Shown one piece after another: positions 2,494-20,300 of a DNA stretch of 64,000 nt. The notes beneath the pieces were generated by a model. It had not been told where the DNA came from. It made no database searches and saw only the letters and a program-made list of their open reading frames with translations. The translations under genes and the position numbers were made by a program. The stretch is from Povalibacter uvarum. GTDB taxonomy: Bacteria; Pseudomonadota; Gammaproteobacteria; Steroidobacterales; Steroidobacteraceae. The DNA is taken from the NCBI RefSeq assembly GCF_014202975.1, contig NZ_JACHHZ010000008.1, positions 62,001 through 126,000 of the forward strand. The letters run 5' to 3'. Position 1 is the first letter of the stretch. Every line of letters begins with the position of its first letter.

Positions 2494-2503
2494 CAGACTA
2501 AGC

Positions 2504-2537
2504 ACGACCGCGCAGTCCTTTGAGGCTGCGCGGTCGT
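2504..2537 (+). terminator. Stem-loop after the TonB receptor
   Basis: A perfect 12-bp inverted repeat (2504-2515 with 2526-2537) and a 10-base loop lie 10 bases after the receptor stop. No T-run follows, so it may be a weak or Rho-assisted terminator or an mRNA 3' stabiliser. Confidence 0.5.
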
Positions 2538-2564
2538 CGCATCAACCGGCATCTCCTTTCTTCC

Positions 2565-2600
2565 TGTGGGTCCGGCTTTAGCCGGACGTCATGCGAAGCA
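2565..2600 (+). repeat. REP-like palindrome, single copy
   Basis: The core GTCCGGCTTTAGCCGGAC is an 18-base palindrome, preceded by TGTGG and followed by GTCATGCGAAGCA. The same unit occurs at 33567-33648 and 49383-49478, where it is paired head-to-head. Here only one arm is present. It is intergenic, like REP/BIME elements. Confidence 0.8.
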
Positions 2601-2632
2601 TGCCTTTCGGTACTACGGCTGAGCCCTCATCC

Positions 2633-2700
2633 GTCATCCCCGCGAAAGCGGGGATCCATCTTGCGGAAAGGCATGGACTCCCGCCTGCGCGGGAGTGACG
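2633..2700. repeat. Inverted pair of GTCATYCCCGCG repeats
   Basis: Two roughly 27-base units in opposite orientation. One starts GTCATCCCCGCG and the other ends CGCGGGAGTGAC; each is a CCCGC...GCGGG hairpin flanked by ATGGA/TCCAT. They lie just beyond the stop of the LVIVD protein gene. Other copies are at 23786-23884 and 31522-31590. Confidence 0.8.
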
Positions 2701-2704
2701 AGCC

Positions 2705-3991: not shown

Positions 3992-4028
3992 CTTTGCCAA
4001 TTCCCAGGTGAAGAACGACTGTGGATTG

Positions 4029-4049
4029 TGCGGGCAGGAACTGCCCGCA
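4029..4049. promoter_or_regulatory. 9-bp inverted repeat in divergent promoter region
   Basis: TGCGGGCAG and CTGCCCGCA form a perfect palindrome with a 3-base centre (GAA). It lies between the divergent LVIVD and carboxylesterase genes, just before a TTGACC hexamer at 4051-4056. It could be an operator. No convincing -10 box was found. Confidence 0.4.
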
Positions 4050-4166
4050 GTTGACCAGCGTACTGTTGAAACTTGACTGGCTGCGCGGCCGCCTCCGAGG
4101 CAACTCATTGCGAGACCTAGACTGCACATCCGAGTACGTATCAACGCCATCATCGGACGGGATGAC

Positions 4167-5769: not shown

Positions 5770-6813
5770 TCAGCCTCTGATGCGCGCAAAAAGCGTCTCG
5801 GCTGTACCGCTAGAGATCGCCGCCAGATCGCCAGCACTCAGCGCCAGGCCCTGGAGCCTCGCCTGCGTCGCCTCGATCGGCACGAGTGGAAAATCGCTGC
5901 CAAACATCACCTGTGTCGCTGGCACGAGACTCAGCAGTGCAGCCATCGCAGGTTGGTTCGCCGAATTGGCGATCTCGTAGTACAGGCGCCGCAGCTCTGC
6001 TTCCACGCCGTCCGGCACAGCTGCGGTGAGCTGCGGCACGCTCGTACTCAACTGCGCAATGCGACCGGCCAGCATCGGAATGGTGCCGCCGGCGTGTGAG
6101 AAGATGAAACGAATACCACGGTGTCGTACGAGCTGACCGGAGAACATCAGGCTCGTGATCGTCCGGTTCGTGTCCTGCGTGAACTCGGTGAGGAATGGCG
6201 GCACGTAAGTCATCAGCTTCGAGCAGCATTCCGGAGAGCCGGGGTGGACGTAGACAACAGCGCCGCGGCGATCGAGCTCCTGCATCACCGGCTCAAAAAA
6301 TGGATCGCCGAGCCAGCGATCACCATAGCTCGTCATGAGCACGATTCCGTCCGCGTGAAGCTGATCGAAAGCATGCTCGATTTCGCGCAGGCTCCCTTCG
6401 ATGTCCGGCAGCGGCAGCGCGGCGAAGAAGCCGAAGCGCTTCGGATGCCGTTGCCGCAGCTGCGCGGCATACAGGCTCGTTTCACGCGACAGGCGCCTGC
6501 CCTGCACTACATCACCAAACCACACACCCGGCGCCGAGATCGAGAGAATCGCGGTCGCAACGCCAGTCTGGTCCATTCGCTCGAGCGCCCGCTGCTCCGA
6601 CCAGCCCAGCCAGTTGGGCACGATCCGGCCGCCGCCCTGTCGTGAGATGTGCTCCTTGACCTCCTCGAACCAGAACGGCGGAATGAAATGGTGATGGACA
6701 TCCACGAGCGCAGGGGCACTCGCGGCAGCGTAGGCCGGTGCCAGGCCGTAGCACGCGCCCGCCGCCGCGAGGCTGCCCAACAGTGTCCGTCGAGTCAGTG
6801 TGTCCGTCTTCAT
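5770..6813 (-). CDS. Tat-exported amidohydrolase, ACMSD/decarboxylase-like family
   Basis: A 347-residue protein of the amidohydrolase_2 family, which contains metal-dependent decarboxylases and hydrolases acting on aromatic acids or ring-cleavage products. The metal site is visible as DVHHHFIP (His40, His42), VYVHPGSP, FSHAGGTIP and GSDFPLVP. The N-terminus TLTRRTLLGSLAAAGA is a good twin-arginine signal ending near AYA, so the enzyme is predicted to fold in the cytoplasm and be exported. That is unusual for ACMSD-type enzymes. It sits 15 bases behind the MFS transporter gene on the same strand, so the two probably form one operon. An AGAAG tract precedes the ATG. Decarboxylase versus lactone hydrolase cannot be decided from sequence. 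Confidence 0.82.
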   Translation of the reverse strand: MKTDTLTRRTLLGSLAAAGACYGLAPAYAAASAPALVDVHHHFIPPFWFEEVKEHISRQGGGRIVPNWLGWSEQRALERMDQTGVATAILSISAPGVWFGDVVQGRRLSRETSLYAAQLRQRHPKRFGFFAALPLPDIEGSLREIEHAFDQLHADGIVLMTSYGDRWLGDPFFEPVMQELDRRGAVVYVHPGSPECCSKLMTYVPPFLTEFTQDTNRTITSLMFSGQLVRHRGIRFIFSHAGGTIPMLAGRIAQLSTSVPQLTAAVPDGVEAELRRLYYEIANSANQPAMAALLSLVPATQVMFGSDFPLVPIEATQARLQGLALSAGDLAAISSGTAETLFARIRG

Positions 6814-6828
6814 GGCTTCTTCTGGTGA

Positions 6829-8073
6829 TCAGGCGGCCGACTCGTTTCGGGTCTGGGGCGCGTTCTGGGCTATATCGGGTTCGGTTCGCTGCCGCGTCAA
6901 GGCGAAGACAGCGGCACCGCCAAGAGCAACGAACGGGATGATGCCAACGAGCACTGCCGAGCTCGCCGCGCCGAGCGCCAGCAAACCACCTGCGTAGAGC
7001 GGCCCTACAACTGATCCAAAGCGGCCAACAGCAACTGCAGCACCCACGCCAGTACTGCGCACCGCTGTGGAATACGACAGGGGCGCGAGCGCGTATACGA
7101 CGAGCTGTCCGCCGATGATCGTCGCGCCAGCGAGTGCGCATCCGAACAGCGCGATTTCGACGCTGGTGCCTGAGTACAACAACATCAATGCGACCACGAT
7201 GCCGAGATAGTTCAGCGTGACCCACAGGCTGCGACGCGGCCCACCACAGGCACGTGCTATGAGGGCTCCGATGAACGAGCCGCTGAGGTTGAAACAGATG
7301 GCGGCCCAGCTTGCCGCGGCATGCGAGAAACTCAGCCTGACGAACAACGTCGGCAGCCAGTTCAGCATCAGCAGAAGAATGAGCTGGTTGAAGAAGAACC
7401 CGGACCACAATTGCAGCGTCCTGCTGGCGCGACCGTCCGCGAACAGCGCCTGACTCAGGCTCGCGGTGTCAGGTCGCACGGCTCCATCTCCAGAGCGCTC
7501 CGCCGACTCACGCAGCAGCGGCATCATGAGCAGCGCGAGCACGACGGGGCCGATACCGCCGACATAGAAGATGACGCGCCAGTCCCAGCCGATCCCGTGG
7601 CTCAACGACAGCATGCCCGCAAGAGCGCCACCGAACGGCAGCGCCGCTGTCACAACGGTGACTACGGCAACCCGTCTCCGCGGCTCGACCATCTCGGCGG
7701 CCAGAGCGATGAAATTGGGCATGGCACCGCCCAGCCCGAGACCGGTCAGGAATCGCGCGAGCAGCAGGGACTCGACGCTATTGGCGAGCGCCGTTGCACA
7801 GGAACACAACCCCATGACCATCAGCGAAGCAATCAGGACCGGCTTTCTGCCGACCCGGTCGGCGACACGCCCGCCAATGATCGCTCCGACGAGAAGGCCG
7901 AACGTCGCAGCGCTGAATACCCAGGAAATGGCGCCGGGCGCCAGGCCGAACTCGGGAATGAGGCGCGGCGCCGCAACACCCATCGACTGATTGTCGAAGC
8001 CCTCGAACAGCGCTGCCAGCGCGCAGAGCACGAGCGAGCGCAGGTTGCCGTCCTGCACGGGCCGCGATTGCAT
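6829..8073 (-). CDS. MFS transporter, aromatic acid:H+ symporter type
   Basis: A 414-residue, 12-helix major facilitator. It carries the loop 2-3 signature GGRVADRVGRKP, and its start (MQSRPVQDGNLRSLVLCALAALFEGFD) matches the aromatic acid:H+ symporter pattern of PcaK/BenK/MhpT-like proteins, where an acidic residue in helix 1 (GFD) is conserved. ATG 8073 gives a normal-length N-terminus; the frame runs open 38 codons further, but with unhelical, Pro-rich sequence. It lies directly upstream of the exported amidohydrolase and opposite an AraC regulator, so it is probably the uptake system for the island's aromatic or ring-cleavage substrate. Confidence 0.85.
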   Translation of the reverse strand: MQSRPVQDGNLRSLVLCALAALFEGFDNQSMGVAAPRLIPEFGLAPGAISWVFSAATFGLLVGAIIGGRVADRVGRKPVLIASLMVMGLCSCATALANSVESLLLARFLTGLGLGGAMPNFIALAAEMVEPRRRVAVVTVVTAALPFGGALAGMLSLSHGIGWDWRVIFYVGGIGPVVLALLMMPLLRESAERSGDGAVRPDTASLSQALFADGRASRTLQLWSGFFFNQLILLLMLNWLPTLFVRLSFSHAAASWAAICFNLSGSFIGALIARACGGPRRSLWVTLNYLGIVVALMLLYSGTSVEIALFGCALAGATIIGGQLVVYALAPLSYSTAVRSTGVGAAVAVGRFGSVVGPLYAGGLLALGAASSAVLVGIIPFVALGGAAVFALTRQRTEPDIAQNAPQTRNESAA

Positions 8074-8394
8074 ACTCAACGGCGGCCCTGGCGGAATCGG
8101 GCGGGCCTGCCTCGACCATGCGATCTTCGGCTCTGTTCTGAATGGTCTGATCCCGCCATCACTTGCTTGCCCCGCGAGCTGCCACACCGGTGGAATGCAC
8201 CGATCGTATCCATCCTAGACAACCAGCGACAGGCGGGCTGGTCCCGGCATGCGGCCCGAATTGACCCTGTCAGCGGCAACCGGCGCACAAGAATGTCGAC
8301 ACCGGACCCTCCGGCACGTCTCTTGATAGAGCGACCGGGCGAATGCCGACGCAAACCGATAACCACGGCCGCTGCAGAAATCAGGGGTGACACG
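8074..8394. promoter_or_regulatory. Divergent intergenic region between transporter and AraC regulator
   Basis: This 321-base gap must hold the promoters of the leftward transporter operon and the rightward araC-type gene. A TTGACC hexamer is at 8261-8266, but no convincing -10 box is at the right distance. An AGGGG ribosome-binding site lies at 8383-8387 before GTG 8395. No gene, long repeat or RNA structure was recognised. Confidence 0.4.
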
Positions 8395-9354
8395 GTGCAC
8401 ATCGAGACTTTCTCGTCCGATCAGGTGCCTCAGACCGCGCGCAGCCGTCAGTTCCAGCGGGAAATGGAGCGGCGGTTCTCGCTGGGACTGGTCGTTGAGG
8501 CGACTTCCAACGAACCGCTGCGGACGCGAGTGACGGCCTATAGCGGCCGGCGCCTGCGCTTCGCGGAGCTCGAGTTCTCGCCGCATCGCACGCATTGCAG
8601 CCAGCCCCGTTGCGACGCACCAGGCCGCCTGCTCATCTCGATCCACCAGGAAGGCAGCGGCCTCGTGTCCCAGTCCGGCCGCAGCCAGCAGATCGACGCG
8701 GGTCAGATGTTCGTTCTCGATCCTTCGCGGCCGTTCTCCATTGAAACATCCGCGGTGCGCGCCCGGTCCGTCTATCTCTCCGCCGACTCGGTTCGAGCAG
8801 TGTTGCCGCAACTGGAAGAAGTGACGGCGCGCCGGATCGACCTGCGCAACGGACCCGGACGCATCTTCGCCAGCATGGTCGATCAGATGTTTGCGATCGC
8901 TCATGAGCTCGACGAGCACGCTACGGATTCACTGGCGGACGCACTTCCTTACATGCTGGTCACTGCGCTGGACGGCGCGGATGCCGCATCGCTCGAATGC
9001 AGCTCACGCCTGACGCTGCTGCACAGGCACCGTATCCAGCAGTTCGCAAAGGAGCACCTTCGCGATCCGAGGCTCGACGCGAAGATGATCGCCGAGGGCG
9101 TAAGTCTGTCGATCCGCCGCGTCTACGAACTGTTCAATCCCTCCTCTGCGTCACTCATGAAGTGGGTCTGGCACGAACGCCTGGAGCGATGCCGCCGCGA
9201 TCTCGGCACGTCAGCACTGCGCGCCAGACCGATCGGCGCCATTGCCTTCGCATGGGGGTTCAGTGACATCTGCCACTTCAGCCGGACCTTCAAGCAACGC
9301 TACGGAATGACGCCGCGCGAGTGGCGAACGAGCAAGACCGAGCAGTGCGACTGA
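8395..9354 (+). CDS. AraC-family transcriptional regulator
   Basis: A 319-residue activator-type regulator. Residues 1 to about 190 resemble the AraC-binding-like (PF14525-type) sensory domain, with the motif LLISIHQEGSGLVSQSGR. The last roughly 100 residues are a two-helix-turn-helix AraC domain ending in GFSDICHFSRTFKQRYGMTPREWR. GTG 8395 is preferred because AGGGG precedes it by 7 bases and the sensor begins soon after. ATG 8293 would add 34 residues without family-like sequence. It is divergent from the MFS/amidohydrolase operon and converges with the beta-keto acid cleavage gene, so it likely controls the surrounding catabolic genes (inference). Confidence 0.85.
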   Translation: MHIETFSSDQVPQTARSRQFQREMERRFSLGLVVEATSNEPLRTRVTAYSGRRLRFAELEFSPHRTHCSQPRCDAPGRLLISIHQEGSGLVSQSGRSQQIDAGQMFVLDPSRPFSIETSAVRARSVYLSADSVRAVLPQLEEVTARRIDLRNGPGRIFASMVDQMFAIAHELDEHATDSLADALPYMLVTALDGADAASLECSSRLTLLHRHRIQQFAKEHLRDPRLDAKMIAEGVSLSIRRVYELFNPSSASLMKWVWHERLERCRRDLGTSALRARPIGAIAFAWGFSDICHFSRTFKQRYGMTPREWRTSKTEQCD

Positions 9355-9359
9355 CGCCC

Positions 9360-10193
9360 TCACGTCCGGTATAGGGCCCCAGCCTCATCGCGTGTTGCCA
9401 GCGGACGACCGGTGCACTCGATCATCTGGCGCACATTGGTCACGGATGCAGCGTTGTCCTTCGCGAGCGTGCCATCCGGCGCCATCAGATTGTTCTCGAA
9501 ACCCACCCGCACATGCCCGCCGAGAGCGATAGCGGCCGCCAGACACAGCGGCTCCGTCCTGCCGAAGGCGCACACAGTCCACGGCCAGTCCATCGGCCAG
9601 TCCGCGATGAACGTCAGCAGGTCACGCGGATTCGACAGGCCATTGACCGCGTGTCGTCCGACAACGAACAAGCCGTGCGGGCGATCGACCGCAATGAGCC
9701 CGCGCGAATGCAACCGGGTCAATGCGGCGACATCCGCCGCCGTGTAGAGAATGAACTGGATTCCGATCGCCTGCTGTGCGGCCCACGCAAGGAAGCCGGC
9801 AGCAGCTGACTCATGAGACTCGTCGGGTATCAGCTCGCGGATCGCCATCGACATGTATCGGGGGACAAGGTTGCGGATCACGGCGACCTGTTGTTCCGCA
9901 CGATAGAGACCCGCACTTTCCGTGGTGACCTGCACCAGGAGGTCATCGCCTACGCGGGCACGAATTGCCGCGATCGCTTCTCGGTACAACTCCGGATCAA
10001 GGCTATGCCGCCCTTGCGCGTCGCGAACATGCAGATGCAACACATGTGCACCGGCCTCGACGATCTGGGCTGCCTCATCGGCAAGCTCCGCAGCGGTCAT
10101 CGGCAATCGCGCGTGATCGGCCTTGCCACGACGTGCACCGTTGGGCGCAACACAGATGACGACAGGAGGTGAGCCGGCGTGCATGGACGACAT
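9360..10193 (-). CDS. Beta-keto acid cleavage enzyme (BKACE, DUF849)
   Basis: A 277-residue TIM-barrel enzyme of the BKACE family (founder: 3-keto-5-aminohexanoate cleavage enzyme). The family reaction is beta-keto acid plus acetyl-CoA giving acetoacetate and a new CoA ester. Family features seen are VICVAPNGAR near the start, the zinc ligand pair in HLHVRD, the TTESAG strand, and GGHVRVGFENN near the C-terminus. ATG 10193 lies 2 bases after the stop of the flavin monooxygenase, so the two are probably co-translated; ATG 10184 is an alternative. In this setting it may cleave a beta-keto acid formed after ring opening. The CoA acceptor substrate cannot be inferred. Confidence 0.85.
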   Translation of the reverse strand: MSSMHAGSPPVVICVAPNGARRGKADHARLPMTAAELADEAAQIVEAGAHVLHLHVRDAQGRHSLDPELYREAIAAIRARVGDDLLVQVTTESAGLYRAEQQVAVIRNLVPRYMSMAIRELIPDESHESAAAGFLAWAAQQAIGIQFILYTAADVAALTRLHSRGLIAVDRPHGLFVVGRHAVNGLSNPRDLLTFIADWPMDWPWTVCAFGRTEPLCLAAAIALGGHVRVGFENNLMAPDGTLAKDNAASVTNVRQMIECTGRPLATRDEAGALYRT

Positions 10194-10195
10194 GG

Positions 10196-11320
10196 TCAGA
10201 TCGGCTCCGCGAGTGCGCGAAGCGATTCCTCCACGAGTGCCGTCTGCTCCCCCACTGAGCCTCCTCGTTTCTCCACGCGGCCGATTTCCAGCGAGTTTCT
10301 GACGACCAGCCCGCATCGCCCGAACCGTCGACGCATGAAAGCATCGCATGCCTTCTCGATCGACTCAGCACGCAGAAGCTCCTCACCCAACACCAGCGCG
10401 TCCTCGATCGCCATGCCGGCGCCCGATGCAAGCTGGGGGCTCGTCGGGTGAGCGGCGTCACCGATCAGAAGGGCACGACCCCGGAACCATGGTGCATCGA
10501 GAACCAGCGCATCAACCGGTCGAAAAACAATGGACGAGTGAATTCCCAGCGCGGCACGTATCTCGCTCAGAATTCCCCCGTAGCCTTCGAGCAAGCGTGC
10601 CAGCTCGCCGTGTGCACCAAACTGCGGGATTCGATCGCGGCGCGGACGCGCTTGCAGCAGAAACAAGTACATCTCGTCCCGCGATACCGGACTCAAACCT
10701 ACCTTGACCGGTCCCCCGAGAAAGTAGTGGCGACGATCGATGGACGGCGGACGCGGCACGACGACTCGCCACACGCTCTGCCCCGTGTACTCAGGCTTCG
10801 GCGCATCGGGAAACAGAAGCTCACGAATGCGCGAGTGAGCGCCGTCGGCACCGATGACGAAGTCATAGTCGCCAGTGCTCCAGTCAGTGAACACGACGTG
10901 AACATGCCCGTCACGTTCGGTCATTGCCTCGACACTCAACCCGAGCCGCACATTCACGCCCAGCTCGCGCACACGTCGCGCCAGCAACTCATGCAGCACC
11001 GGCCTGAGAATTCCACCGCTGCCCTCGAGACCATCGATCCCTTTGGGCGCCGGCGTCTGCAGTTCCTGCAGCGTCGCTCCGTCCATTCCACAGATGCGGA
11101 TTCCATGCCCGGTATATCCGAGCTGGCGCACCTCTTCGAGAACACCCAGGGAATGCAAGGCACGCAGCGTCGGCCCCGTGATCGTGATGCCAGTGCCCGC
11201 GACTCGCCAGCTGGGATCCCATTCGACGAGATCGACTTTCACGCCGGCACGGGCGAGCACGATTGCCGCTGACATACCGGCAATGCCTGCGCCTGTGATC
11301 AGAACCGATGCAGCAATCAT
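10196..11320 (-). CDS. FAD-dependent aromatic monooxygenase (class A)
   Basis: A 374-residue flavoprotein hydroxylase of the PHBH/UbiH/salicylate-hydroxylase group. It has the N-terminal FAD motif LITGAGIAG with the strand ending DLVE, the NADPH/FAD DG motif VIGADGAHSRIR, and the GD motif LLIGDAAHP followed by GAGMAIEDALVL. ATG 11320 puts the Rossmann motif immediately after the start, as is normal; 15 extra upstream codons are possible but unlikely. It should hydroxylate an aromatic ring using NAD(P)H and O2, giving a catechol or polyphenol for the LigAB-type dioxygenase encoded on the other strand. It is the first gene of a leftward pair with the BKACE gene and divergent from the ring-cleavage operon. 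Confidence 0.88.
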   Translation of the reverse strand: MIAASVLITGAGIAGMSAAIVLARAGVKVDLVEWDPSWRVAGTGITITGPTLRALHSLGVLEEVRQLGYTGHGIRICGMDGATLQELQTPAPKGIDGLEGSGGILRPVLHELLARRVRELGVNVRLGLSVEAMTERDGHVHVVFTDWSTGDYDFVIGADGAHSRIRELLFPDAPKPEYTGQSVWRVVVPRPPSIDRRHYFLGGPVKVGLSPVSRDEMYLFLLQARPRRDRIPQFGAHGELARLLEGYGGILSEIRAALGIHSSIVFRPVDALVLDAPWFRGRALLIGDAAHPTSPQLASGAGMAIEDALVLGEELLRAESIEKACDAFMRRRFGRCGLVVRNSLEIGRVEKRGGSVGEQTALVEESLRALAEPI

Positions 11321-11468
11321 GTCGTCTTGTGCCGCGCAGGCTGTCGGGCAGTCAACGCGACACATTCAGTTACGCAGGTTCAGTCAAGAGTGGGTGCAGG
11401 AGCAATCCAATCGGCCTGCGCGGTGTGGCTAGCATGTCCTCTCCTGCCCAGAGCGACCAGGTGGCCGC

Positions 11469-12620
11469 GTGCCCGACGCAACGATCGATCCCTCCGTCCA
11501 AGGACGGCCGAAAACGCTGGACGAAGCCAAGGCGTGGATGAAGTCGCGGCTTGCCGCACGCACGCACCCGATGAACAACATCGAACCTGTCGAAGGCAAT
11601 CGACTGATCGATCAGCTCAAGGGCCTCGATGGCGAATCCTGGGCTGCCGTGTGGGGAACTGCCGCCGATGGAGTGATGAATGAAGCGCGGCAGGCCGAGC
11701 GCAATGGCGACGCCGCTGCCGTGAGCGCTCTATATCAACGCGCAAGCGGACTGTATTTCATGGGGCGATTCCCCTGCCCCAATCATCCCGCCAAGGAGCG
11801 ATGCGCCGTGGCGGAACGCGAAGCGTACATCGCAGCGTCGCGCCATTGGCCTCATCCGGTCGAGCCCGTCATCGTTCCCTTTGCAGGTCGCAAGGGTGAA
11901 GGGAACCGGGTCACCGGCTATCTGCGCCGTCCCCACGACGTTCCGAAGCCGCGAGTCGTGGTGATGTGGGGCGGCGTCGACGCATGGAAGGAGCAGATGA
12001 CGGCTATCAGCGATGCCTTCCTCGCACGGGGACTCGCGACCATCGCAATGGACAACGCCGGCACCGGCGAATCACCCGTAAAGGGCGTCGTCGATGCCGA
12101 CCGAAGCTTCGTAGCCATGTTCGATTGGGCCGCGGCACAACGCGATCTCGACGCGGATCGCGTGGCGTGCCTGGGCAGATCGTTCGGCGGCTACTGGGCA
12201 ACCCGACTCGCCCATCTGCACCCCGACCGCATCGCCGGTGCCGTCAACTGGGGCGGCGGTGCCCACTTCATGTTTCAGCGCGAGTGGATCGAGGCCTCGA
12301 GGTATCCCGACAGCTATCTCATGGACCTCGTCGAAACGCGCTCGCGGATGCTGGGCGCCTCGACCGACGAGGAATACATCGCGTTCTTCGAGCGCCTCTC
12401 CCTGCTGGACCAGGGATTGCTCGATCGTCCCTGCGCGCCTCTGTTGCTGGTCAATGGCAAGGATGACCGGCAGTGCCCGATCGCGGACATGCATCTGCTC
12501 ATGGAGCGCGGCAGCCCGAAATCAGTCCGGCTGTTCCCGGGCGGCCACATGGGCCTGACGCCGCAAACGCTGCCGACGATCGTGGACTGGCTCGTCGCCC
12601 GCGCGCACAACCAGAGCTGA
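11469..12620 (+). CDS. Alpha/beta hydrolase, FrsA/DHPON-hydrolase-like
   Basis: A 383-residue alpha/beta hydrolase with a long helical N-terminal cap (about 1-130) before the core, the layout of the FrsA and 2,6-dihydroxypseudooxynicotine hydrolase group. That group includes enzymes that cleave C-C bonds of beta-diketone-like compounds. The nucleophile elbow is GRSFGG (Ser238), the acid Asp332/333 in NGKDDRQ, and the His in GGHMGL (His360). GTG 11469 is preceded by AGGTGG at 11459-11464. It starts the rightward ring-cleavage operon, 8 bases before the LigA-like gene. A role in splitting a diketone or ring-fission product is inference from family and place; esterase activity is the alternative. 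Confidence 0.75.
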   Translation: MPDATIDPSVQGRPKTLDEAKAWMKSRLAARTHPMNNIEPVEGNRLIDQLKGLDGESWAAVWGTAADGVMNEARQAERNGDAAAVSALYQRASGLYFMGRFPCPNHPAKERCAVAEREAYIAASRHWPHPVEPVIVPFAGRKGEGNRVTGYLRRPHDVPKPRVVVMWGGVDAWKEQMTAISDAFLARGLATIAMDNAGTGESPVKGVVDADRSFVAMFDWAAAQRDLDADRVACLGRSFGGYWATRLAHLHPDRIAGAVNWGGGAHFMFQREWIEASRYPDSYLMDLVETRSRMLGASTDEEYIAFFERLSLLDQGLLDRPCAPLLLVNGKDDRQCPIADMHLLMERGSPKSVRLFPGGHMGLTPQTLPTIVDWLVARAHNQS

Positions 12621-12628
12621 AGCAAACC

Positions 12629-12931
12629 ATGCGCAACTGGCAGCAAGACATCCCGACGATTCAGGCGTACTGGATCGATCGTGTCCTGTTCGACGTTCAC
12701 CACAAGGAAGGCCACCTCCAGCGCTACAACGCCAGCCCCGATGCGTATCTGTCCGCGATCCCGTTGAGCGCGGAGATCAAGGCACTCATTCGCGACAACG
12801 CGGTGGGCGCGCTGTATCTCGCCGGTGCCAACCCCTACCTGCTGCGTGCGCATTGCCTGGGACTGCACATGCCCGACGCCGAGTTCGTTGCCTCGTTGCG
12901 CGCCGTCGCCGGAGAAGCACGCCGTGGCTGA
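12629..12931 (+). CDS. Extradiol dioxygenase small subunit, LigA-like
   Basis: A 100-residue protein resembling the alpha (LigA) subunit of protocatechuate 4,5-dioxygenase-type class II extradiol dioxygenases. The conserved region is IRDNAVGALYLAGANPYLLRAHCLGLHMP. It is shorter than stand-alone LigA (about 140 residues) but matches the core. It contributes to the substrate pocket of the LigB partner rather than binding iron. ATG 12629 is 8 bases after the hydrolase stop, and its 3' end overlaps the LigB-like start by 8 bases, so the subunits are translationally coupled. Confidence 0.82.
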   Translation: MRNWQQDIPTIQAYWIDRVLFDVHHKEGHLQRYNASPDAYLSAIPLSAEIKALIRDNAVGALYLAGANPYLLRAHCLGLHMPDAEFVASLRAVAGEARRG

Positions 12932-13757
12932 TCTCGTCGGTGTCTTCGCAGCCAGCCATACGCCGGTCATGCTCAACTTCCCGGACGCGGTCGAGGAAGC
13001 TGACCGCAGCGCCGTCTACGACGAGTTCCGCAAGCTCGGGGCGGCGCTGGCGGCCACCAAGCCACAAACCGTGATCGTGATCTCCGACGATCACCTGCAT
13101 AACTTCTTTCTCGACAACCTTCCAGCGTTCTGTATCGGTGCCGCGGACAGCTATGCATCGCCGGCCGAGCATTGGCTCGCTGTCGATCGCCACGCCTTGC
13201 GCGGTGACAGCGCCCTCTCCGCACACGTGCTCGGCGAAGCGCTTGAAGCAGGTTTCGATCCAGCGTTCTCCATGCAGCTCACTCTCGATCACGGAGTGCT
13301 CACGCCGCTCGTGCTCGCAGGCCTTTCGCGACAGGTCGCGATCGTTCCCATCCTGGTCAATTGCGTGCAGCCGCCGCTGCCGACCATGGCGCGCTGCCTG
13401 CAATGGGGACGATTCCTCTCTACCGCGATCCGCAGCTATCGCGGCTGCGAGCGTGTAGCGATTCTCGCAACCGGCGGTATCAGTCACGACGTCGCGACGC
13501 CGCGCATGGGAATGATCAACGAAGCGTTCGATCGCGAATTCCTGCGCCTGCTCGAGCTCGACGACAGTGAGCAACTCCTCAGGTTCGCTACCGACCACGT
13601 CAACGAGGCCGGCAACGGTGCCGAGGAGATCCGGAACTGGCTGATGGCACACGGTGCTGCCGCCGGGCACCGCTTCGAACTGCAGTTCTATCGGCCGCTG
13701 CACAAGTGGTACACGGGCATTGGGATGGCGCGCTGGCACACGGGCGACGCATCGTGA
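12924..13757 (+). CDS. Extradiol ring-cleavage dioxygenase catalytic subunit, LigB-like
   Basis: A 277-residue catalytic subunit of the class III (LigB-type) extradiol dioxygenases, which use non-heme Fe(II) to open catechol-like rings at the meta position. The N-terminal iron/active-site His lies in FAASHTPVM (His12). VIVISDDHLHNFF gives further conserved His, and LTLDHGVLTPL and ATGGISHD are family blocks. GTG 12924 is chosen because GGAGAAG at 12911-12917 precedes it and it overlaps the LigA-like stop. The substrate is probably the product of the neighbouring flavin monooxygenase (inference); protocatechuate, gallate-like or larger bicyclic phenols are all possible. Confidence 0.88.
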   Translation: MADLVGVFAASHTPVMLNFPDAVEEADRSAVYDEFRKLGAALAATKPQTVIVISDDHLHNFFLDNLPAFCIGAADSYASPAEHWLAVDRHALRGDSALSAHVLGEALEAGFDPAFSMQLTLDHGVLTPLVLAGLSRQVAIVPILVNCVQPPLPTMARCLQWGRFLSTAIRSYRGCERVAILATGGISHDVATPRMGMINEAFDREFLRLLELDDSEQLLRFATDHVNEAGNGAEEIRNWLMAHGAAAGHRFELQFYRPLHKWYTGIGMARWHTGDAS

Positions 13758-14533
13758 GTGACCCGATCACGTCGTGGCACGACATCGGTCCACGCTCCGC
13801 GCCCGTCGTCGTACTCCTGCACGCCATTGCGACGGACAGCGACCTGTGGGCGTCGCAAATTCCCGTGTGGTCGCAGCGATTCCGTCTGCTCGCGGTCGAT
13901 CTGCCTGGTCACGGGGCGAGTAAACCCCGGCCGCATATCAACTCCGTCGAGGCCTACGCCGATGCGCTTGCGCAACTGCTGCTGCGCGAATCGATTCAGA
14001 CCGCCTCAATCGTGGGCCTGTCGCTGGGAGGCATGATCGCTCAGGCATTCGCCCTGTCGTTCCCGGAGCGCGTTCGTTCGCTGGTATTGAGCAACACTTC
14101 CGCGCGCACTCCGCCGGCGATGCAGGACATCTGGTCGAAGCGCATGCAGCAGGCCGTTCAGCACGGGATGGAGCACCAGGTTGCGCCAACGATCGAGCGC
14201 TGGTTTACGCCGCGATTCACCGAACGTGCTCCACTGCATGTCGCGCGCATCGCCAGGATGATTCGCAGCACATCTCTGGAAGGCTACGTGGCGGCGATCG
14301 AGGCGATTCAACGACTCGACCTGCTGGATCGACTTCCGGAGCTGTCGATGCCTGCCCTGGTCATCACGGGACGCCTTGACCCCGCGGCAACACCACAGAT
14401 CGCAGAAACGATCGCGGGCAAGCTGCCCGACTCGAGGCTAACAGTGATCGAGGATGCCGCCCATCTTTCCAACATCGAGCAGCCCGGGGCGTTCGTGGAA
14501 TCAGTAGGCGCCTTCCTCGAACAGACACGCTAG
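13754..14533 (+). CDS. Alpha/beta hydrolase, 3-oxoadipate enol-lactonase-like
   Basis: A 259-residue alpha/beta hydrolase closest in pattern to PcaD-type enol-lactonases. It has VVLLHAIATDSDLW (oxyanion region), VDLPGHGASKP, the nucleophile elbow GLSLGGM (Ser90), GRLDPAATP (Asp209) and DAAHLSNIEQP (His237). It begins with GTG inside a GTGA overlap with the LigB-like stop, so it is translationally coupled to the dioxygenase. It likely hydrolyses a lactone or ester made after ring cleavage. PcaD itself acts in the ortho pathway, so this copy beside a meta-type dioxygenase probably has a different lactone substrate. Confidence 0.82.
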   Translation: MSDPITSWHDIGPRSAPVVVLLHAIATDSDLWASQIPVWSQRFRLLAVDLPGHGASKPRPHINSVEAYADALAQLLLRESIQTASIVGLSLGGMIAQAFALSFPERVRSLVLSNTSARTPPAMQDIWSKRMQQAVQHGMEHQVAPTIERWFTPRFTERAPLHVARIARMIRSTSLEGYVAAIEAIQRLDLLDRLPELSMPALVITGRLDPAATPQIAETIAGKLPDSRLTVIEDAAHLSNIEQPGAFVESVGAFLEQTR

Positions 14534-14550
14534 TTCGACACGAGGACGAC

Positions 14551-17500
14551 ATGAGCTTCGCTTCGCGCATTCTGTTCTTCGCCGCGCTGCTTCCTCCTGC
14601 GTTCGCGGCAGAGACTCCTCGGACACCGACTCCCGCCGCATCGACGTCAGCGGCTGGCGAGCTCGAGTCCGGCTTTCGCAATCCTCCCGCAGCCGCGCGA
14701 CCACGCGTCTGGTGGCACTGGATGAACGGGAATGTCACCAAGGAAGGTATCACCGAAGATCTGCGCTGGATGAAAAGCGTCGGGATCGGCGGCCTGCAGA
14801 ATTTCGATGCGTCGCTGGGAACACCGCAAGTCGTCGAGAAGCGGCTGGCCTTCATGACGCCGGAATGGCAGGACGCATTCCGGCACGCCGCTTCGCTGTC
14901 ACGGGAGCTCGATCTCGAGCTCGCAATCGCGACCTCCGCAGGCTGGAGTCAGACGGGCGGCCCCTGGGTTGCGCCTGAGCAGGCGATGAAGAAGGTTGTC
15001 TGGAGCACCGCGATTCTCGAAGGAGGTCAGCGTCGACAATCCCCTCTGCCTCTACCGCCGAACGTCGCCGGTCCTTACCAGGATATACCGTACCCATCGC
15101 GCACCTCCGCACCTGCGCCGCCCTTCTACGTCGACACTCACGTCATCGCCTTTCCCGCGCCTCCCGATGACGGCAGCGAGAATGCATTGACTCCACGTGT
15201 CCACACTCGCTCGGGAGTGCTGGATCGGAGCCTCCTCGCTGACGGCAGTCTCGCGAACACGGTGACTGTGTCAGTCGCCGATGCGACAAGTGGCATCACC
15301 TTCGACTATCCGCAGCCGACGCGAATCGCCGCGATCACCGTTGCCGTGCCTGTTCGACATGGATTTGGAGCGCCGCCTCAGTTCTCCGCCACGTTGGAGG
15401 CGAGCGATGACGGAACGACCTATCGCCGCGTCGCCGACGTCCCACCCTCACGCGCGGATCAACGCACGATCGCTTTCCCTGCGGTCACCGCACGATCGTT
15501 CCGCGTTTCGTTCAGAGCGGGCGACCCTTTCTCAAGACCGATCGGCGATGGCGTCGTGCCCATGCAGTTTCCGCCGGTGCCCGCCTCGATCGACATCGCC
15601 GAGCTCGCTCTGCACCAGCGCATGCGAGTCAACCAATTCGTCGAGAAGGCGGGCTTCGCTGCTGCGAACGACTACTACGCGATCGCAACACCTCAGGCTC
15701 CGTCGGGATCCATCGTAAAGAGCAAGGACATCATCGATCTCACGCGCAAGCTCGGTCGCGACGGCGTTCTCGACTGGACCCCGCCGCGAGGTCGATGGAT
15801 CGTGCTGCGCTTCGGCTATGGCCTCACTGGACACATGAACGGACCCGCCACCGAGGAGGCGACGGGCCTGGAAGTCGACAAGCTGAATCGGCAGCACGTC
15901 CGCGGTTACATCGATCGCTACCTGGACATGTACACGAAGGCCGTCGGTATCGATCTGGTCGGCACGCAGGGCCTTCGAGCGTTGCTGAGCGACAGCTATG
16001 AAGCGGGCGCGCAGAACTGGACCGAGCACATGCCCGAAGAGTTCGAGCGACGGCGTGGCTACGATGCCCGTCGCTGGCTGCCATCGCTTGCCGGGTGGGT
16101 CATCGACAGCTCCGTCGCGAGCGATCGATTTCTCTGGGACTATCGACGCACGATCACTGATCTGCTCGCGGACGCTCACTACGGCGAGATCGCATCAGTC
16201 GCTCGCGAGCGCGGCCTGCTGCTGTATGGCGAAGCACTCGAGGATCAACGGCCGGCTCTCGGAGACGACATGGCGATGCGGCGTCACGCCGACATTCCCA
16301 TGGCCGCAATGTGGATGTACCCGGGAAGGCCCGGACCGAATCCGACTTACGTTGCCGACCATCGCGGCGCCGCTTCGGTGGCCCACGTCTACGGCCAGAA
16401 CGTCGCTGCCGCCGAATCGCTGACGTCCTTCGGATATCCATGGGCGTTCGCGCCGCGCGATCTGCAGCCCGTCGCTGATCTGCAGTTCGCGCTGGGCATC
16501 AATCGGATCGTCGTTCATACATCCGTGCATCAACCGCTCTCCGACAAGCGTCCCGGCATGTCCCTGCGTCCGCTGCTGGGACAGTATTTCGGACGCACGG
16601 AGACGTGGGCGAAGCACGCGCAGCCGTGGATTGACTACCTCGCACGCAGTTCGTTCCTGCTGCAGCAGGGAACGTACGCAGCCGATGTTGCGTACTTCTA
16701 TGGGCAAGAAGCGCCGATCACCGGACTCTATGGCCTTCCCGCCTCGGAACCGCAACCCGCTGATCAACCCACAGGCTATGCGTTCGACTTCGTCAACGAC
16801 GATGTAGTGCTGAACCAGTTCTCGGTCGATCGCGGTGATCTCACGACGCCGGGCGGAATGCGATATCGCATCCTCTATCTTGGAGGCACCAGCGAGCGGA
16901 TGACATTGGCTGTCGTGCGAAGGCTCGAACAACTCGTGCGAGCGGGCGCTACTGTCGTCGGCACGCCGCCCCGTGAATCGCCGAGCCTCGCTGATGATCC
17001 ATCGCAATTCGCTTCCGCCGTAGCAATCCTTTGGGGAGATGATGTCGGCGCAGGAACAGTTCGCGTCCTCGGCAAGGGACGAATCATGCGCGCAGCAACA
17101 CCGGCGCTTGCATTGGAACAGCTCGGAGTGTCGAAGGACTTCGAGCTTCGCGGCAAGGCAGCCACCGGCGATGTCATGTTCCTGCACCGGCGGCTTGCCG
17201 ACGGACACGCGTATTTCCTCAGCAATCGAACCGATCGGATTCTGTCGGGCGATGCCGTCTTCCGGGTCGACAACAGGCTTCCCGAACTGTGGGACGCGGA
17301 ATCGGGAAAGATTTCGCCGCTCTCCTATCGGCTGGAGAATGGCCGCACGATAGTTCCCCTCGAACTGCAAGCGCACCGTTCTGCCTTCGTCGTGTTTCGC
17401 ACGCCGGCGAAGGCCCGCTCGTGGACTGCTCCTTCGATGAAAGACGCGACGCTCCAGCCGCTCGACGGCGAGTGGAACGTCGAGTTTCCCGCCGCCCACA

Positions 17501-17940
17501 CCCGACTGACTTTGCCCTCTCTCGCGAACTGGGCTGTGAATGACGATCCGAAGGTGCGCTACTACTCTGGAAGTGCCTTCTACCGAAAGACATTCAACCT
17601 CGCCGCTCGTTCGCAAGCTGGCGGCGAACGCGTGATCCTCGACCTGGGCGATGTCCGCGAACTCGCCGTCGTGACTGTCAACGGCCAGACGCTTCAGACC
17701 TTGTGGCGGCCTCCGTTCCGCGTCGACATCACCGATGCGCTCATTGCCGGCAAGAACGAAATGACGGTCGAAGTCGTCAACCTCTGGGTCAATCGCCTGA
17801 TCGGCGATGCGCAGCCCGGCGCGAGTCCGCGGACTTTCACGACCGGTCCCACCTACCTGCCGGGTGCTCCACTGCGTCCCTCCGGCCTGCTTGGACCTGT
17901 GCGACTGCTCAGTACTGGAGCAGTCGAAGGTGGCGGCTAG
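14551..17940 (+). CDS. Secreted GH106 alpha-L-rhamnosidase
   Basis: A 1129-residue glycoside hydrolase of the GH106 type, which removes terminal alpha-L-rhamnose from plant glycosides and polysaccharides. A signal peptide spans residues 1-19 (cleavage near AFA-A). The family start FRNPPAAARPRVWWHWMNG is at about 47-65, followed by VGIGGLQNFD and LAIATSAGWSQTGGPW. A large catalytic barrel is followed by a C-terminal jelly-roll domain (about 980-1115, with WNVEFP, FYRKTFNL and VEVVNLWVNRLIGD). GAGGACGAC precedes ATG 14551. It is 17 bases after the lactonase-like gene and almost certainly in the same operon, which links deglycosylation to ring cleavage. Confidence 0.88.
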   Translation: MSFASRILFFAALLPPAFAAETPRTPTPAASTSAAGELESGFRNPPAAARPRVWWHWMNGNVTKEGITEDLRWMKSVGIGGLQNFDASLGTPQVVEKRLAFMTPEWQDAFRHAASLSRELDLELAIATSAGWSQTGGPWVAPEQAMKKVVWSTAILEGGQRRQSPLPLPPNVAGPYQDIPYPSRTSAPAPPFYVDTHVIAFPAPPDDGSENALTPRVHTRSGVLDRSLLADGSLANTVTVSVADATSGITFDYPQPTRIAAITVAVPVRHGFGAPPQFSATLEASDDGTTYRRVADVPPSRADQRTIAFPAVTARSFRVSFRAGDPFSRPIGDGVVPMQFPPVPASIDIAELALHQRMRVNQFVEKAGFAAANDYYAIATPQAPSGSIVKSKDIIDLTRKLGRDGVLDWTPPRGRWIVLRFGYGLTGHMNGPATEEATGLEVDKLNRQHVRGYIDRYLDMYTKAVGIDLVGTQGLRALLSDSYEAGAQNWTEHMPEEFERRRGYDARRWLPSLAGWVIDSSVASDRFLWDYRRTITDLLADAHYGEIASVARERGLLLYGEALEDQRPALGDDMAMRRHADIPMAAMWMYPGRPGPNPTYVADHRGAASVAHVYGQNVAAAESLTSFGYPWAFAPRDLQPVADLQFALGINRIVVHTSVHQPLSDKRPGMSLRPLLGQYFGRTETWAKHAQPWIDYLARSSFLLQQGTYAADVAYFYGQEAPITGLYGLPASEPQPADQPTGYAFDFVNDDVVLNQFSVDRGDLTTPGGMRYRILYLGGTSERMTLAVVRRLEQLVRAGATVVGTPPRESPSLADDPSQFASAVAILWGDDVGAGTVRVLGKGRIMRAATPALALEQLGVSKDFELRGKAATGDVMFLHRRLADGHAYFLSNRTDRILSGDAVFRVDNRLPELWDAESGKISPLSYRLENGRTIVPLELQAHRSAFVVFRTPAKARSWTAPSMKDATLQPLDGEWNVEFPAAHTRLTLPSLANWAVNDDPKVRYYSGSAFYRKTFNLAARSQAGGERVILDLGDVRELAVVTVNGQTLQTLWRPPFRVDITDALIAGKNEMTVEVVNLWVNRLIGDAQPGASPRTFTTGPTYLPGAPLRPSGLLGPVRLLSTGAVEGGG

Positions 17941-18065
17941 CGCGAGATCCAGCCGCCCGCGCTCCAGGGCCACGCCGATTTGTCGCATTCGGCGCTGCAG
18001 TTCGTTCCATCAACCAGAGACAGCCGGTCAGCCGACCGCACCTGTGCCTGGCGACGGCCCGCGGG

Positions 18066-20300
18066 ATGGCGTGCGTTGCAGCGCAAACTTCATCGTCGCC
18101 ATGGAGACCCGAGTTGTTCATTCTTGCCGCAGCGTTGCTCGTGTTCCTCGCCTTGTGCGCCGAGGCGAACGCACAGACTGCGCCCCTGGAGAAATCCTTC
18201 ACCGCGGGCAGGACGTCCCAGGCACCCACCATTGACGGCCGTATCGACGAGATCGAGTGGAAGGACGCGGCCACTGTCGACGGCTTCCATACGCTGTTGC
18301 CCGTCGAGTTTGCAGTTCCGGCCGAGCGGACAGTCGTCAAGGTCATGTACGACTCGGATGCGCTTTACGTCGGCGCATTCCTCTACAACCGCGATCCTCG
18401 CCAGATCAGCGCCCGGGTGATGAAGCAAGGCGATGCGCTGCTCGCCGACGACCGCTTCTCGGTGGTCATCGACACGTTCCATGACCGGCGCAACGGCTAT
18501 CTTTTCATGGTGAACGCCAATGGCGTGCGTCGCCAGGGTCTGTTCCAGAACACCACCAACCTGAACTTCGACTGGAAGGGAATCTGGCAGACACGCTCGA
18601 GCAGGACTGAAGACGGCTGGGTCACGGAGATGCGCATTCCGTTCAAGACGCTCGCCTTCGATCCCACCACCGACGAGTGGGGAATCAACTTCGAGCGCGA
18701 AGTGCCGGGGCGCAATGAAAGTTATGGCTGGTCGTCGCACAACGCGCAGGTCAACCCAGGAACGGCCGGCAACGTGCGCGGCCTCCAGGGATTGAGTCAG
18801 GGCCTGGGGCTCGATGTCGTACCCTCTCTGAGCGCAAGGCGAACTCAGCGCAGCGACGAGGACAACGACGAGTGGCGCCTCGAGCCCTCGCTGGATGTGT
18901 TTTACAGGCCGACCCCGACGCTCACGGCAGCGCTCACATTCAACACCGATTTCTCCGCGACCGACGTCGACGATCGCGAAGTCAATCTCACGCGCTTCAG
19001 CCTCTTCTTTCCGGAGCGCCGCAGCTTCTTCCTCGAGGGTGCCGACTTCTTCGAGTTCGGACGGCTCGATGCGACCAATGAAGAAGACTCCGCGATCCCC
19101 TCCTCTTCGCGCCAGAACGGCCGCCCGTACTTCTCGCGACAGATCGGGCTCGCCGCCGACGGCACACCGGTCGACATCCTGGCGGGAGCCAAGCTGACAG
19201 GTCGCGCCGGACGCTGGAACATCGGCGTGCTCGACGTTCAACAGGAAGCGTTCGCTGAAGTCGACTCACGGAACCTCGCTGTCGCGCGCGTTTCTGCAAA
19301 CATCCTCGAAGAATCCAGTCTCGGCATGATCGCAACGAATGGCGATCCTCGTTCGAACGAAGACAACTCGGTTGCCGGCGTCGACTTCCGGTATCGCAAC
19401 TCACACCTGCCGGGCAACAACGTCTTCGAAGCGGAAGCCTGGTACCAGATGAGCACGGGGACCCGCGCGACGGAAGACGAAGCGTTCGGTGTTCGCCTGC
19501 GGTTGCCCAACACTGTAGGCTGGCGGGCCGGCCTCAGTGTCAAGGAGATCGGAGAGAACTTCTATCCCGCACTTGGTTTCGTCAACCGCCGCGGCATCCG
19601 CGACCAGGTCGCCGAAGCCGGCTACGAGTACCGGACCTCCGGCAAATTCCTGCAGTCGATCTACGCCGGCGTGGATGCGCAGCAAGTCGATCGCCTGAGC
19701 GGCGACATGGAAAGCAGGCTCGTGGTGCTGCGGCCCCTCGAGATCGAGACCCGCAATGCCGACATCCTCGGCCTGCGCACGTACATGAATACCGAAGTGC
19801 TCGCGGAACCCTTCGAGATTGCGCCGGGCGTTTCGATAGCGCCCGGCCGCTACGATTTCGACGAGTACGAGATGTACCTTGAAACCGGCGCGCATCGCGC
19901 GCTGGCTCTCGCGCTCACCGCAGCGACCGGCGACTTCTACGACGGCGAGCAGCAACGCGCCGAGGCAGAGATCACCTGGCGGCCAACGCCGCACTTCGCG
20001 GCCATCGTCGCGCACGAGATCAACGATATCGACTTGCCTTCCGGCGCATTCATCGCGCGACTCAGCCGAGTGCGCTTCGACATCGTGTTTTCCTCGACGC
20101 TTGCGTGGACCAGCTTCGTCCAGTACGACAACGTGTCGGAGCTCATCGGCATCAACAGTCGCCTGCACTGGGTTCCCGAAGCCGGTCGCGAGATGTATCT
20201 CGTCTTCAACCAGGGACTGCAGGACTTCGACCGCGACGACCGGTTCCGCTCCGTCCAGTCGGATGTTGTCGGAAAGGTCGGCTATACGTTCAGATTCTGA
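18066..20300 (+). CDS. CBM9-like/DUF5916 outer-membrane protein
   Basis: A 744-residue exported protein. A hydrophobic signal (ELFILAAALLVFLALCAEANA) is followed by a CBM9-like carbohydrate-binding domain (PTIDGRIDEIEWKDA to roughly residue 220). A DUF5916 region carries the hallmark RFSLFFPERRSFFLEGADFFEFG, and the C-terminus GYTFRF ends in Phe, as in beta-barrels inserted by the Bam complex. The function of the family is not established; surface glycan or glycoside binding is inference. ATG 18066 gives an Arg-containing n-region. TTG 18114 has a better ribosome site (GGAG 7 bases upstream) but lacks a basic n-region. It is 125 bases after the rhamnosidase and probably co-regulated. Confidence 0.8.
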   Translation: MACVAAQTSSSPWRPELFILAAALLVFLALCAEANAQTAPLEKSFTAGRTSQAPTIDGRIDEIEWKDAATVDGFHTLLPVEFAVPAERTVVKVMYDSDALYVGAFLYNRDPRQISARVMKQGDALLADDRFSVVIDTFHDRRNGYLFMVNANGVRRQGLFQNTTNLNFDWKGIWQTRSSRTEDGWVTEMRIPFKTLAFDPTTDEWGINFEREVPGRNESYGWSSHNAQVNPGTAGNVRGLQGLSQGLGLDVVPSLSARRTQRSDEDNDEWRLEPSLDVFYRPTPTLTAALTFNTDFSATDVDDREVNLTRFSLFFPERRSFFLEGADFFEFGRLDATNEEDSAIPSSSRQNGRPYFSRQIGLAADGTPVDILAGAKLTGRAGRWNIGVLDVQQEAFAEVDSRNLAVARVSANILEESSLGMIATNGDPRSNEDNSVAGVDFRYRNSHLPGNNVFEAEAWYQMSTGTRATEDEAFGVRLRLPNTVGWRAGLSVKEIGENFYPALGFVNRRGIRDQVAEAGYEYRTSGKFLQSIYAGVDAQQVDRLSGDMESRLVVLRPLEIETRNADILGLRTYMNTEVLAEPFEIAPGVSIAPGRYDFDEYEMYLETGAHRALALALTAATGDFYDGEQQRAEAEITWRPTPHFAAIVAHEINDIDLPSGAFIARLSRVRFDIVFSSTLAWTSFVQYDNVSELIGINSRLHWVPEAGREMYLVFNQGLQDFDRDDRFRSVQSDVVGKVGYTFRF

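Follow-up and report, generated by a model that had tools for sequence, protein, structure and literature searches.

The genome of the gammaproteobacterium Povalibacter uvarum (assembly GCF_014202975.1) carries, on contig NZ_JACHHZ010000008.1, a compact gene set that looks built for stripping rhamnose off a plant phenolic and then opening the aromatic ring, which would be a familiar kind of job. The genes lie at positions 5770–20300 of a 64,000-nucleotide stretch (contig positions 62,001 to 126,000, forward strand), the whole of which we call the window. They encode, amongst others, a class III extradiol dioxygenase of the LigAB type, a flavin adenine dinucleotide (FAD)-dependent monooxygenase, a C–C hydrolase related to fungal Ayg1, a beta-keto acid cleavage enzyme (BKACE) and an alpha-L-rhamnosidase of family GH106. 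That the island serves the breakdown of a rhamnosylated phenolic, with a compound of the flavonoid type as the likeliest candidate, is in our view about an even call.

The gene identities put forward in a first-pass annotation, made by a model from the letters alone, are borne out by Pfam and NCBIfam cut-offs with one exception. The gene described there as an enol-lactonase-like hydrolase does resemble PcaD but scores below the PcaD cut-off, so that we use the label PcaD-like only and reject PcaD proper. The features of the island are as follows:

5770..6813, minus strand: Amidohydro_2 protein with a twin-arginine-like signal sequence (by eye); Pfam 111.8 bits, cut-off 26.4
6829..8187 (start at 8187 or 8073), minus strand: MFS transporter of the aromatic-acid type, MhpT-like; NCBIfam PRK11551 412.6 bits, cut-off 410
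8293..9354, plus strand: AraC-family regulator; Pfam HTH_18 56.4 bits, cut-off 33.6
9360..10193 (ATG at 10193), minus strand: BKACE; Pfam 213.4 bits, cut-off 24.8
10196..11365 (start at 11365 or 11320), minus strand: FAD-dependent monooxygenase of the PRK06847 subfamily; NCBIfam 424.2 bits, cut-off 372; Pfam FAD_binding_3 104.4 bits, cut-off 22
11469..12620, plus strand: Ayg1/FrsA-type alpha/beta C–C hydrolase; FrsA-like 66.8 bits, cut-off 22, and phmmer match to 8qd7
12629..12931, plus strand: LigA-like small subunit; Pfam 25.9 bits, barely over the cut-off of 25.3
12924..13757, plus strand: LigB-like class III extradiol dioxygenase, catalytic subunit; Pfam 133.8 bits, cut-off 26.3
13754..14533, plus strand: PcaD-like alpha/beta hydrolase; NCBIfam pcaD (TIGR02427) 217.1 bits, under the cut-off of 255.85
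14551..17940, plus strand: GH106 alpha-L-rhamnosidase with a signal-like N-terminus; Pfam 989.4 bits, cut-off 29
18066..20300, plus strand: CBM9-like/DUF5916 protein; Pfam DUF5916 51.8–52.5 bits and CBM9_1 29.7–30.1 bits, both above cut-off

From this layout four transcription units are presumed: the transporter followed by the amidohydrolase and the FAD monooxygenase followed by BKACE on the minus strand, the regulator on the plus strand and, also on the plus strand, the series that runs from the hydrolase through LigA, LigB, the PcaD-like gene and GH106 to DUF5916. The annotation had described contiguous genes with overlaps or gaps under 20 bases, and at the likeliest starts many junctions are this tight: hydrolase and LigA are 8 nt apart, LigA and LigB overlap by 8 and LigB and the PcaD-like gene by 4, GH106 follows after 17 nt, the FAD gene and BKACE are separated by 2 nt and the transporter and amidohydrolase by 15 nt. 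The island nevertheless occupies both strands. The open reading frame for DUF5916 opens at 17703 and so overlaps GH106, but the earliest start that is plausible and followed by a signal-like sequence (by eye) is at 18066, some 125 bases past the end of GH106. Since no junction between the hydrolase and GH106 exceeds 17 bases and two are overlaps, it is very probable that rhamnosidase and dioxygenase belong to one operon, as had been claimed; BKACE, placed in the same operon by that claim, sits in a divergent unit. Scans for promoters and terminators gave no excess over shuffled sequences. GC content is 0.62–0.64 across the whole window, the island being no different, and recent transfer as judged by base composition was rejected because this uniformity gives no compositional sign of it. 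Despite the even GC content, the closest relatives of LigB lie outside the organism's own taxonomic family.

The FAD monooxygenase, the Ayg1/FrsA-type hydrolase, LigA, LigB and the PcaD-like hydrolase form a real conserved module. Outside the window we assembled 26 loci that encode an ortholog of LigB at 53–70% identity, including loci from Burkholderiales, Pseudomonas, Novosphingobium and Rhizobiaceae. Sixteen came from a pattern-based search through a single genome of each species with one protein as the query, an approach limited to close relatives (LigB 51–66% identical by best segment; Burkholderiales, Pseudomonas and Novosphingobium), and ten were added from plasmids and further genomes. 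Flanks were short at L033, L039, L045 and L046, and a further locus, L099, with the hydrolase and PcaD-like genes and no LigB in the fetched stretch, was left out of the count. Relatives of the window's FAD monooxygenase and LigA are present at all 26 loci, of its hydrolase at 23, of the PcaD-like protein at 21, of the AraC regulator at 16 (43–50% identity) and of BKACE at six. Because this core recurs in distant genera, its grouping is more than chance, and the earlier suggestion of a ring-cleavage catabolic module is strongly supported.

The dioxygenase belongs to the class III LigAB group on two counts, LigB scoring above its cut-off and LigA being encoded as a separate subunit. Aligned to gallate dioxygenase, with which it shares LigA and LigB subunits and active-site positions, LigB conserves the His and Glu residues that we take to be the iron ligands and catalytic His. 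LigB-type matches are found in 97 of 217 genomes of the organism's own family, the best other among the matches listed being 39% identical; unlike these class III kin, the window's LigB forms a set of its own with the 26 loci. The module is wide over distant genera yet rare. Cultured species such as Ramlibacter aurantiacus and Novosphingobium capsulatum carry it, and some of its hosts live with plants, Rhizobium tropici CIAT 899 being an example. Hydrolase orthologs (E ≤ 1e-90) were found in one of 369 genomes sampled from the window's class, that one being the window's own, in seven of 399 in the family of a Ramlibacter genome and in two of 397 in that of Novosphingobium capsulatum, already-known loci being counted in both of these families.

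Two of the rhizobial loci show the module in larger company. On plasmid pRtrCIAT899c of R. tropici CIAT 899, a bean-nodule isolate, it is found with BKACE and a molybdenum hydroxylase (L105), whilst a Rhizobium rhizoryzae plasmid (L106, 3713–7288 and 11099–16132) holds within a span of about 13 kb both an FAD gene of the VOC-linked type, accompanied by a distant hydrolase, and a complete LigAB module.

Evidence for the link to deglycosylation comes from the rhamnosidase and is indirect. The window enzyme is closest to the solved structure 6q2f (1019.5 bits, against 436.9 for 5mqm), which itself matches a protein encoded on plasmid Mpl of Novosphingobium PP1Y with 2540 bits over 1108 residues. 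Because of this match we take 6q2f to be RHA-P. The domain and the closest solved relative make the window's GH106 a rhamnosidase of this PP1Y (RHA-P) type. The PP1Y rhamnosidase is described in a review as hydrolysing naringin, rutin and neohesperidin dihydrochalcone (PMC6710449).

We compared the neighbourhoods of 28 GH106 relatives: 12 plasmid loci from 12 of 36 matching plasmid records, nine loci from module-holding genomes or records (two of them sharing a further, thirteenth record of the 36) and seven from the window's own family, out of 19 match places. Ring-cleavage pairs were recognised by a set of markers, FAD hydroxylases on the one hand and VOC dioxygenases on the other, together with annotations. 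Such a pair lies beside GH106 at seven of the 12 plasmid loci (L140, L141, L149, which is PP1Y, L150, L152, L154 and L155), the VOC call in PP1Y being made on 39% identity to the VOC protein of L140, with no Pfam name at 1e-6. At L153 the stretch stops at the start of the record, and a gene for an MhpA-type hydroxylase lies about 8 kb off, across the origin. As a rough control, 12 plasmid records were found to hold a close MhpA-type relative (E ≤ 1e-120); seven of these also hold GH106, and in all seven the two genes are no more than 9 kb apart on plasmids of 0.2–1.76 Mb. This is no independent test, because the query came from a GH106 locus and the seven records are related. Three gene orders occur among the GH106/MhpA loci. 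Rhamnosidase together with ring cleavage is therefore a recurring theme, mostly in sphingomonads.

A fourth order is seen on plasmid pCME4A9I of Croceicoccus marinus (L150), where genes for a PRK06847-subfamily FAD oxidoreductase, a VOC dioxygenase, an FrsA-type hydrolase and GH106 are consecutive. This is the functional set of the window with another class of dioxygenase, although the FAD gene and hydrolase are only 36% and 27% identical to the window's. The other sphingomonad loci, PP1Y amongst them, likewise place a rhamnosidase of the same kind beside an FAD hydroxylase and an extradiol dioxygenase, but these belong to other families (an MhpA-type hydroxylase and a VOC dioxygenase, with a fumarylacetoacetate hydrolase), and L141, L152, L154 and L155 also encode a GH1-type beta-glucosidase. 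In the window, the class III LigAB module takes the place of the VOC enzyme.

Further clues come from the fde and ifc clusters of Herbaspirillum seropedicae and Variovorax, which serve cleavage of the flavonoid A ring. The ifc cluster is described as encoding an FAD hydroxylase, extradiol cleavage and an alpha/beta hydrolase similar to DHPON hydrolase (PMC11069340). The island resembles these clusters in having an FAD hydroxylase followed by extradiol ring cleavage; they employ a glyoxalase-type (VOC) dioxygenase, FdeC or IfcB, and cupins, however, whereas the island has LigAB, the PcaD-like hydrolase and BKACE, and no VOC/glyoxalase domain or cupin was recognised among the scanned genes of 5770–20300. 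Six annotated plasmids with FAD enzymes 44–48% identical to the window's (L108–L112 and L114, picked from 68 records) carry clusters that, compared from description, resemble ifc/fde in gene content: a VOC family gene lies nearby in all six, a distant hydrolase relative in five, a fumarylacetoacetate hydrolase family gene in five and a cupin in three (L108, L109 and L112). Weak relatives (21–28%) of the window's amidohydrolase are found in L108, L111 and L114, and the VOC protein of L109 received no name from NCBIfam at E 1e-20, nor did DUF5916 or the LVIVD protein described below. Likeness to the FAD flavonoid 8-hydroxylase of fde/ifc was judged at the level of the subfamily: the PRK06847 cut-off is exceeded by the FAD enzymes of the window, of an fde/ifc-like cluster in B. 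anthina and of L150. In a quick tree (SH-aLRT support only), LigAB-linked FAD enzymes stand apart from VOC-linked ones with 93 at the base, the exceptions being a second enzyme from R. rhizoryzae, which falls with the VOC-linked ones, and one from Streptomyces, which falls with the LigAB-linked ones.

A plasmid of Streptomyces sp. NBC_01260 (L113, 5977–7104) encodes an FAD monooxygenase 54% identical to the window's within a biosynthetic-looking cluster that includes an acyl carrier protein and a phenylalanine aminomutase, indicating that this subfamily is not confined to catabolism.

Given that relatives of GH106 in sphingomonads often adjoin ring cleavage of another class, it is simplest to suppose that this lineage joined the LigAB module with GH106 for use on a rhamnosylated phenolic; the substrates of the PP1Y enzyme and the ifc/fde-like sister clusters make a flavonoid the likeliest guess. 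On such a route, whose substrate, order and every catalytic step we infer, GH106 would strip L-rhamnose outside the cytoplasm and the aglycone would be taken up. The FAD enzyme would then hydroxylate the phenol next to an existing hydroxyl and LigAB would open the ring, after which the Ayg1-type serine hydrolase would cut a C–C bond of the diketone-like product, the PcaD-like enzyme would hydrolyse a lactone or enol and BKACE would transfer the freed beta-keto acid to acetyl-CoA. On another contig this genome encodes rhamnose isomerase and rhamnulose-1-phosphate aldolase, both scoring above their NCBIfam cut-offs (the only match for the isomerase being on contig C5), and released rhamnose could thus be used.

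The hydrolase may take another place in this order. In the PDB it comes closest to Wdyg1 and Ayg1, hydrolases of fungal pigments (phmmer E = 1.6e-52 for 8qd7 and 5.5e-43 for 8qd1), followed by the DHPON hydrolase of a nicotine pathway (2jbw, 1.1e-10). It shares family and catalytic positions with all of these, the Ser, Asp and His positions being kept in the alignment, but differs from them in catabolic context and in the residues of the substrate pocket: by eye, GVDA replaces GLDG, and Trp196 and Glu381 of the pocket are not conserved. An Ayg1 melanin hydrolase proper was rejected since neither the GLDG motif nor the naphthol pocket is retained. Ayg1 and Wdyg1 are reported to cleave an acetoacetyl or acetyl group off a polyhydroxyarene, the product of Ayg1 being 3-oxobutanoate, a beta-keto acid (PMC11165489). 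This chemistry, the retained catalytic positions and the presence of BKACE, which would accept a released beta-keto acid, make it conceivable that the hydrolase acts first, deacylating an acylphenol to free a polyphenol that is then hydroxylated and cleaved by LigAB. Such an order would be compatible with the substrate class proposed above, but the altered motif and pocket speak against it, as does a Rhodococcus locus (L107) in which a 45% identical hydrolase relative lies amid Rieske dioxygenase, SDR and VOC dioxygenase genes; because the order there, Rieske–SDR–hydrolase–VOC, resembles that of the biphenyl pathway, this hydrolase would act after ring cleavage. We regard the deacylase-first order as rather unlikely. 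Branches in the hydrolase tree are very long.

More distant hydrolases of the Ayg1 type are encoded in two genomes of the window's own family (G119 and G120; loci L081 and L082), near a 44% identical relative of the MhpT-like transporter and with no LigB match; that of L082 has a signal-like N-terminus.

Both in the window and at L043, L048, L050, L097, L105 and L106, the neighbour of BKACE is either the hydrolase gene or the FAD gene, in varying orders, and this adjacency fits a beta-keto acid as the product of the hydrolase. Homologs (E ≤ 1e-30) are also present in six of 16 other genomes or records. The window protein keeps the HLH motif of the domain, of which the His pair presumably binds metal, and has FENN in place of the FEDN of 2y7d.

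Several observations weigh against tying this module to a rhamnoside. The first-pass annotation had itself named beforehand, as a refuting outcome of a neighbourhood search, that dioxygenase and rhamnosidase should be adjacent only in this strain, and amongst 27 loci (the window and the 26 others) the adjacency of LigB and GH106 is indeed a single case: neither GH106 nor DUF5916 is present at any of the 26 within the stretch read. In the 19 genomes or records behind L032–L050, three of them plasmid records only, GH106 is found anywhere in just four and is absent from 15; in NZ_CP117418.1, the sole record with both positions known, it is about 56 kb from the module. The deglycosylation link, held up by the plasmid loci, finds little support elsewhere: a recognised ring-cleavage pair lies beside GH106 at one of the nine loci from module-holding genomes (L091) and none of the seven from the own family, and so is missing from 15 of the 16 relatives outside the plasmid set, some of which lie in rhamnose operons. 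Five GH106 relatives (L077, L089, L091, L094 and L149) stand beside rhamnose isomerase and aldolase. The company of the module is varied, with hydroquinone/hydroxyquinol lower-pathway genes at six of the 26 loci (L039, L041, L042, L044, L046 and L049), a Rieske O-demethylase at three (L034, L036 and L040) and a molybdenum hydroxylase at three (L048, L050 and L105); neither the hydroquinone genes nor the molybdenum enzyme has to point to flavonoids. In Variovorax, moreover, disruption of the DHPON-like hydrolase gene is reported to leave daidzein degradation unaffected (PMC11069340). Taken together, the single LigB–GH106 case, the varied company, the non-plasmid GH106 loci and the harmless Variovorax disruption mean that different lineages may act on different substrates, or that the substrate may be a simpler phenolic.

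The same data bear on whether the island merely unites two functions that share a promoter by chance, with LigAB serving a simple phenolic or acylphenol and GH106–DUF5916 forming an independent rhamnose-scavenging pair behind it. The absence of both genes from the 26 module loci and the rhamnose genes beside some GH106 relatives would be expected on that account, which is also favoured by the 125-nt gap that separates GH106 from DUF5916 and by the DUF5916 relatives, which are multicopy in some genomes and beside which no ring-cleavage gene was recognised at the four of six loci that were gene-called (judged by N-terminal letters only). We nevertheless find a chance union doubtful. This kind of GH106 has ring-cleavage genes as neighbours in several different arrangements and stays close to the MhpA-type hydroxylase in all seven plasmid records that hold both (the query, as noted, having come from a GH106 locus), and the rhamnose isomerase is encoded outside the window.

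Varied company could alternatively mean that the core acts on an N-heteroaromatic ring in a nicotine-like route of hydroxylation, DHPON-type hydrolysis and ring opening. The three loci with a molybdenum hydroxylase are rhizobial relatives that would suit this, matches of the window's FAD enzyme in the PDB include 6-hydroxynicotinate and methylhydroxypyridine-carboxylate oxygenases, and an Amidohydro_1 relative lies near seven of the first 19 module loci. The island lacks such extra genes, however, its hydrolase is much nearer Ayg1 than DHPON hydrolase, and nine of the 26 loci adjoin genes for carbocyclic phenols (the three O-demethylase and six hydroquinone loci), so that a nitrogen-containing ring seems to us quite improbable.

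Each part of the island belongs to a known family; what appears to be new is a conserved aromatic module that combines LigAB with BKACE and an Ayg1-type hydrolase, and the joining of this module to GH106, neither of which was found among the papers listed in an open-licence literature search. Nor did that limited search yield an assigned substrate for the LigAB/Ayg1-type module, and the window hints at one, a rhamnosylated phenolic. If this is right, a flavonoid-type route would have had one class of dioxygenase replaced by another, and an Ayg1-type hydrolase and BKACE would have a role in aromatic catabolism. A broader proposal, which we make tentatively and lean somewhat against, is that bacteria have a second, unrelated solution to the flavonoid ring, in which LigAB, an Ayg1-type C–C hydrolase and BKACE would open the A ring and remove beta-keto acids; soil and plant bacteria would carry it both on plasmids and on chromosomes, and here it would be joined to rhamnoside removal.

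On DUF5916 itself, the open-licence papers listed gave nothing on point. In two relatives of the window's genome (G119 and G1408), DUF5916/CBM9 proteins are multiplied, with 8 and 12 matches, some of them close together.

The single tRNA gene of the window, at 39604, is distant from the island. Directly upstream, window positions 67–5759 hold three genes for which a role in uptake or de-esterification is possible:

67..2493, plus strand: TonB-dependent receptor (Pfam), membership of the island uncertain
2705 to about 4000, minus strand: LVIVD-repeat protein
4167..5759, plus strand: type B carboxylesterase adjoining the island, membership uncertain; Pfam COesterase 370.6 bits

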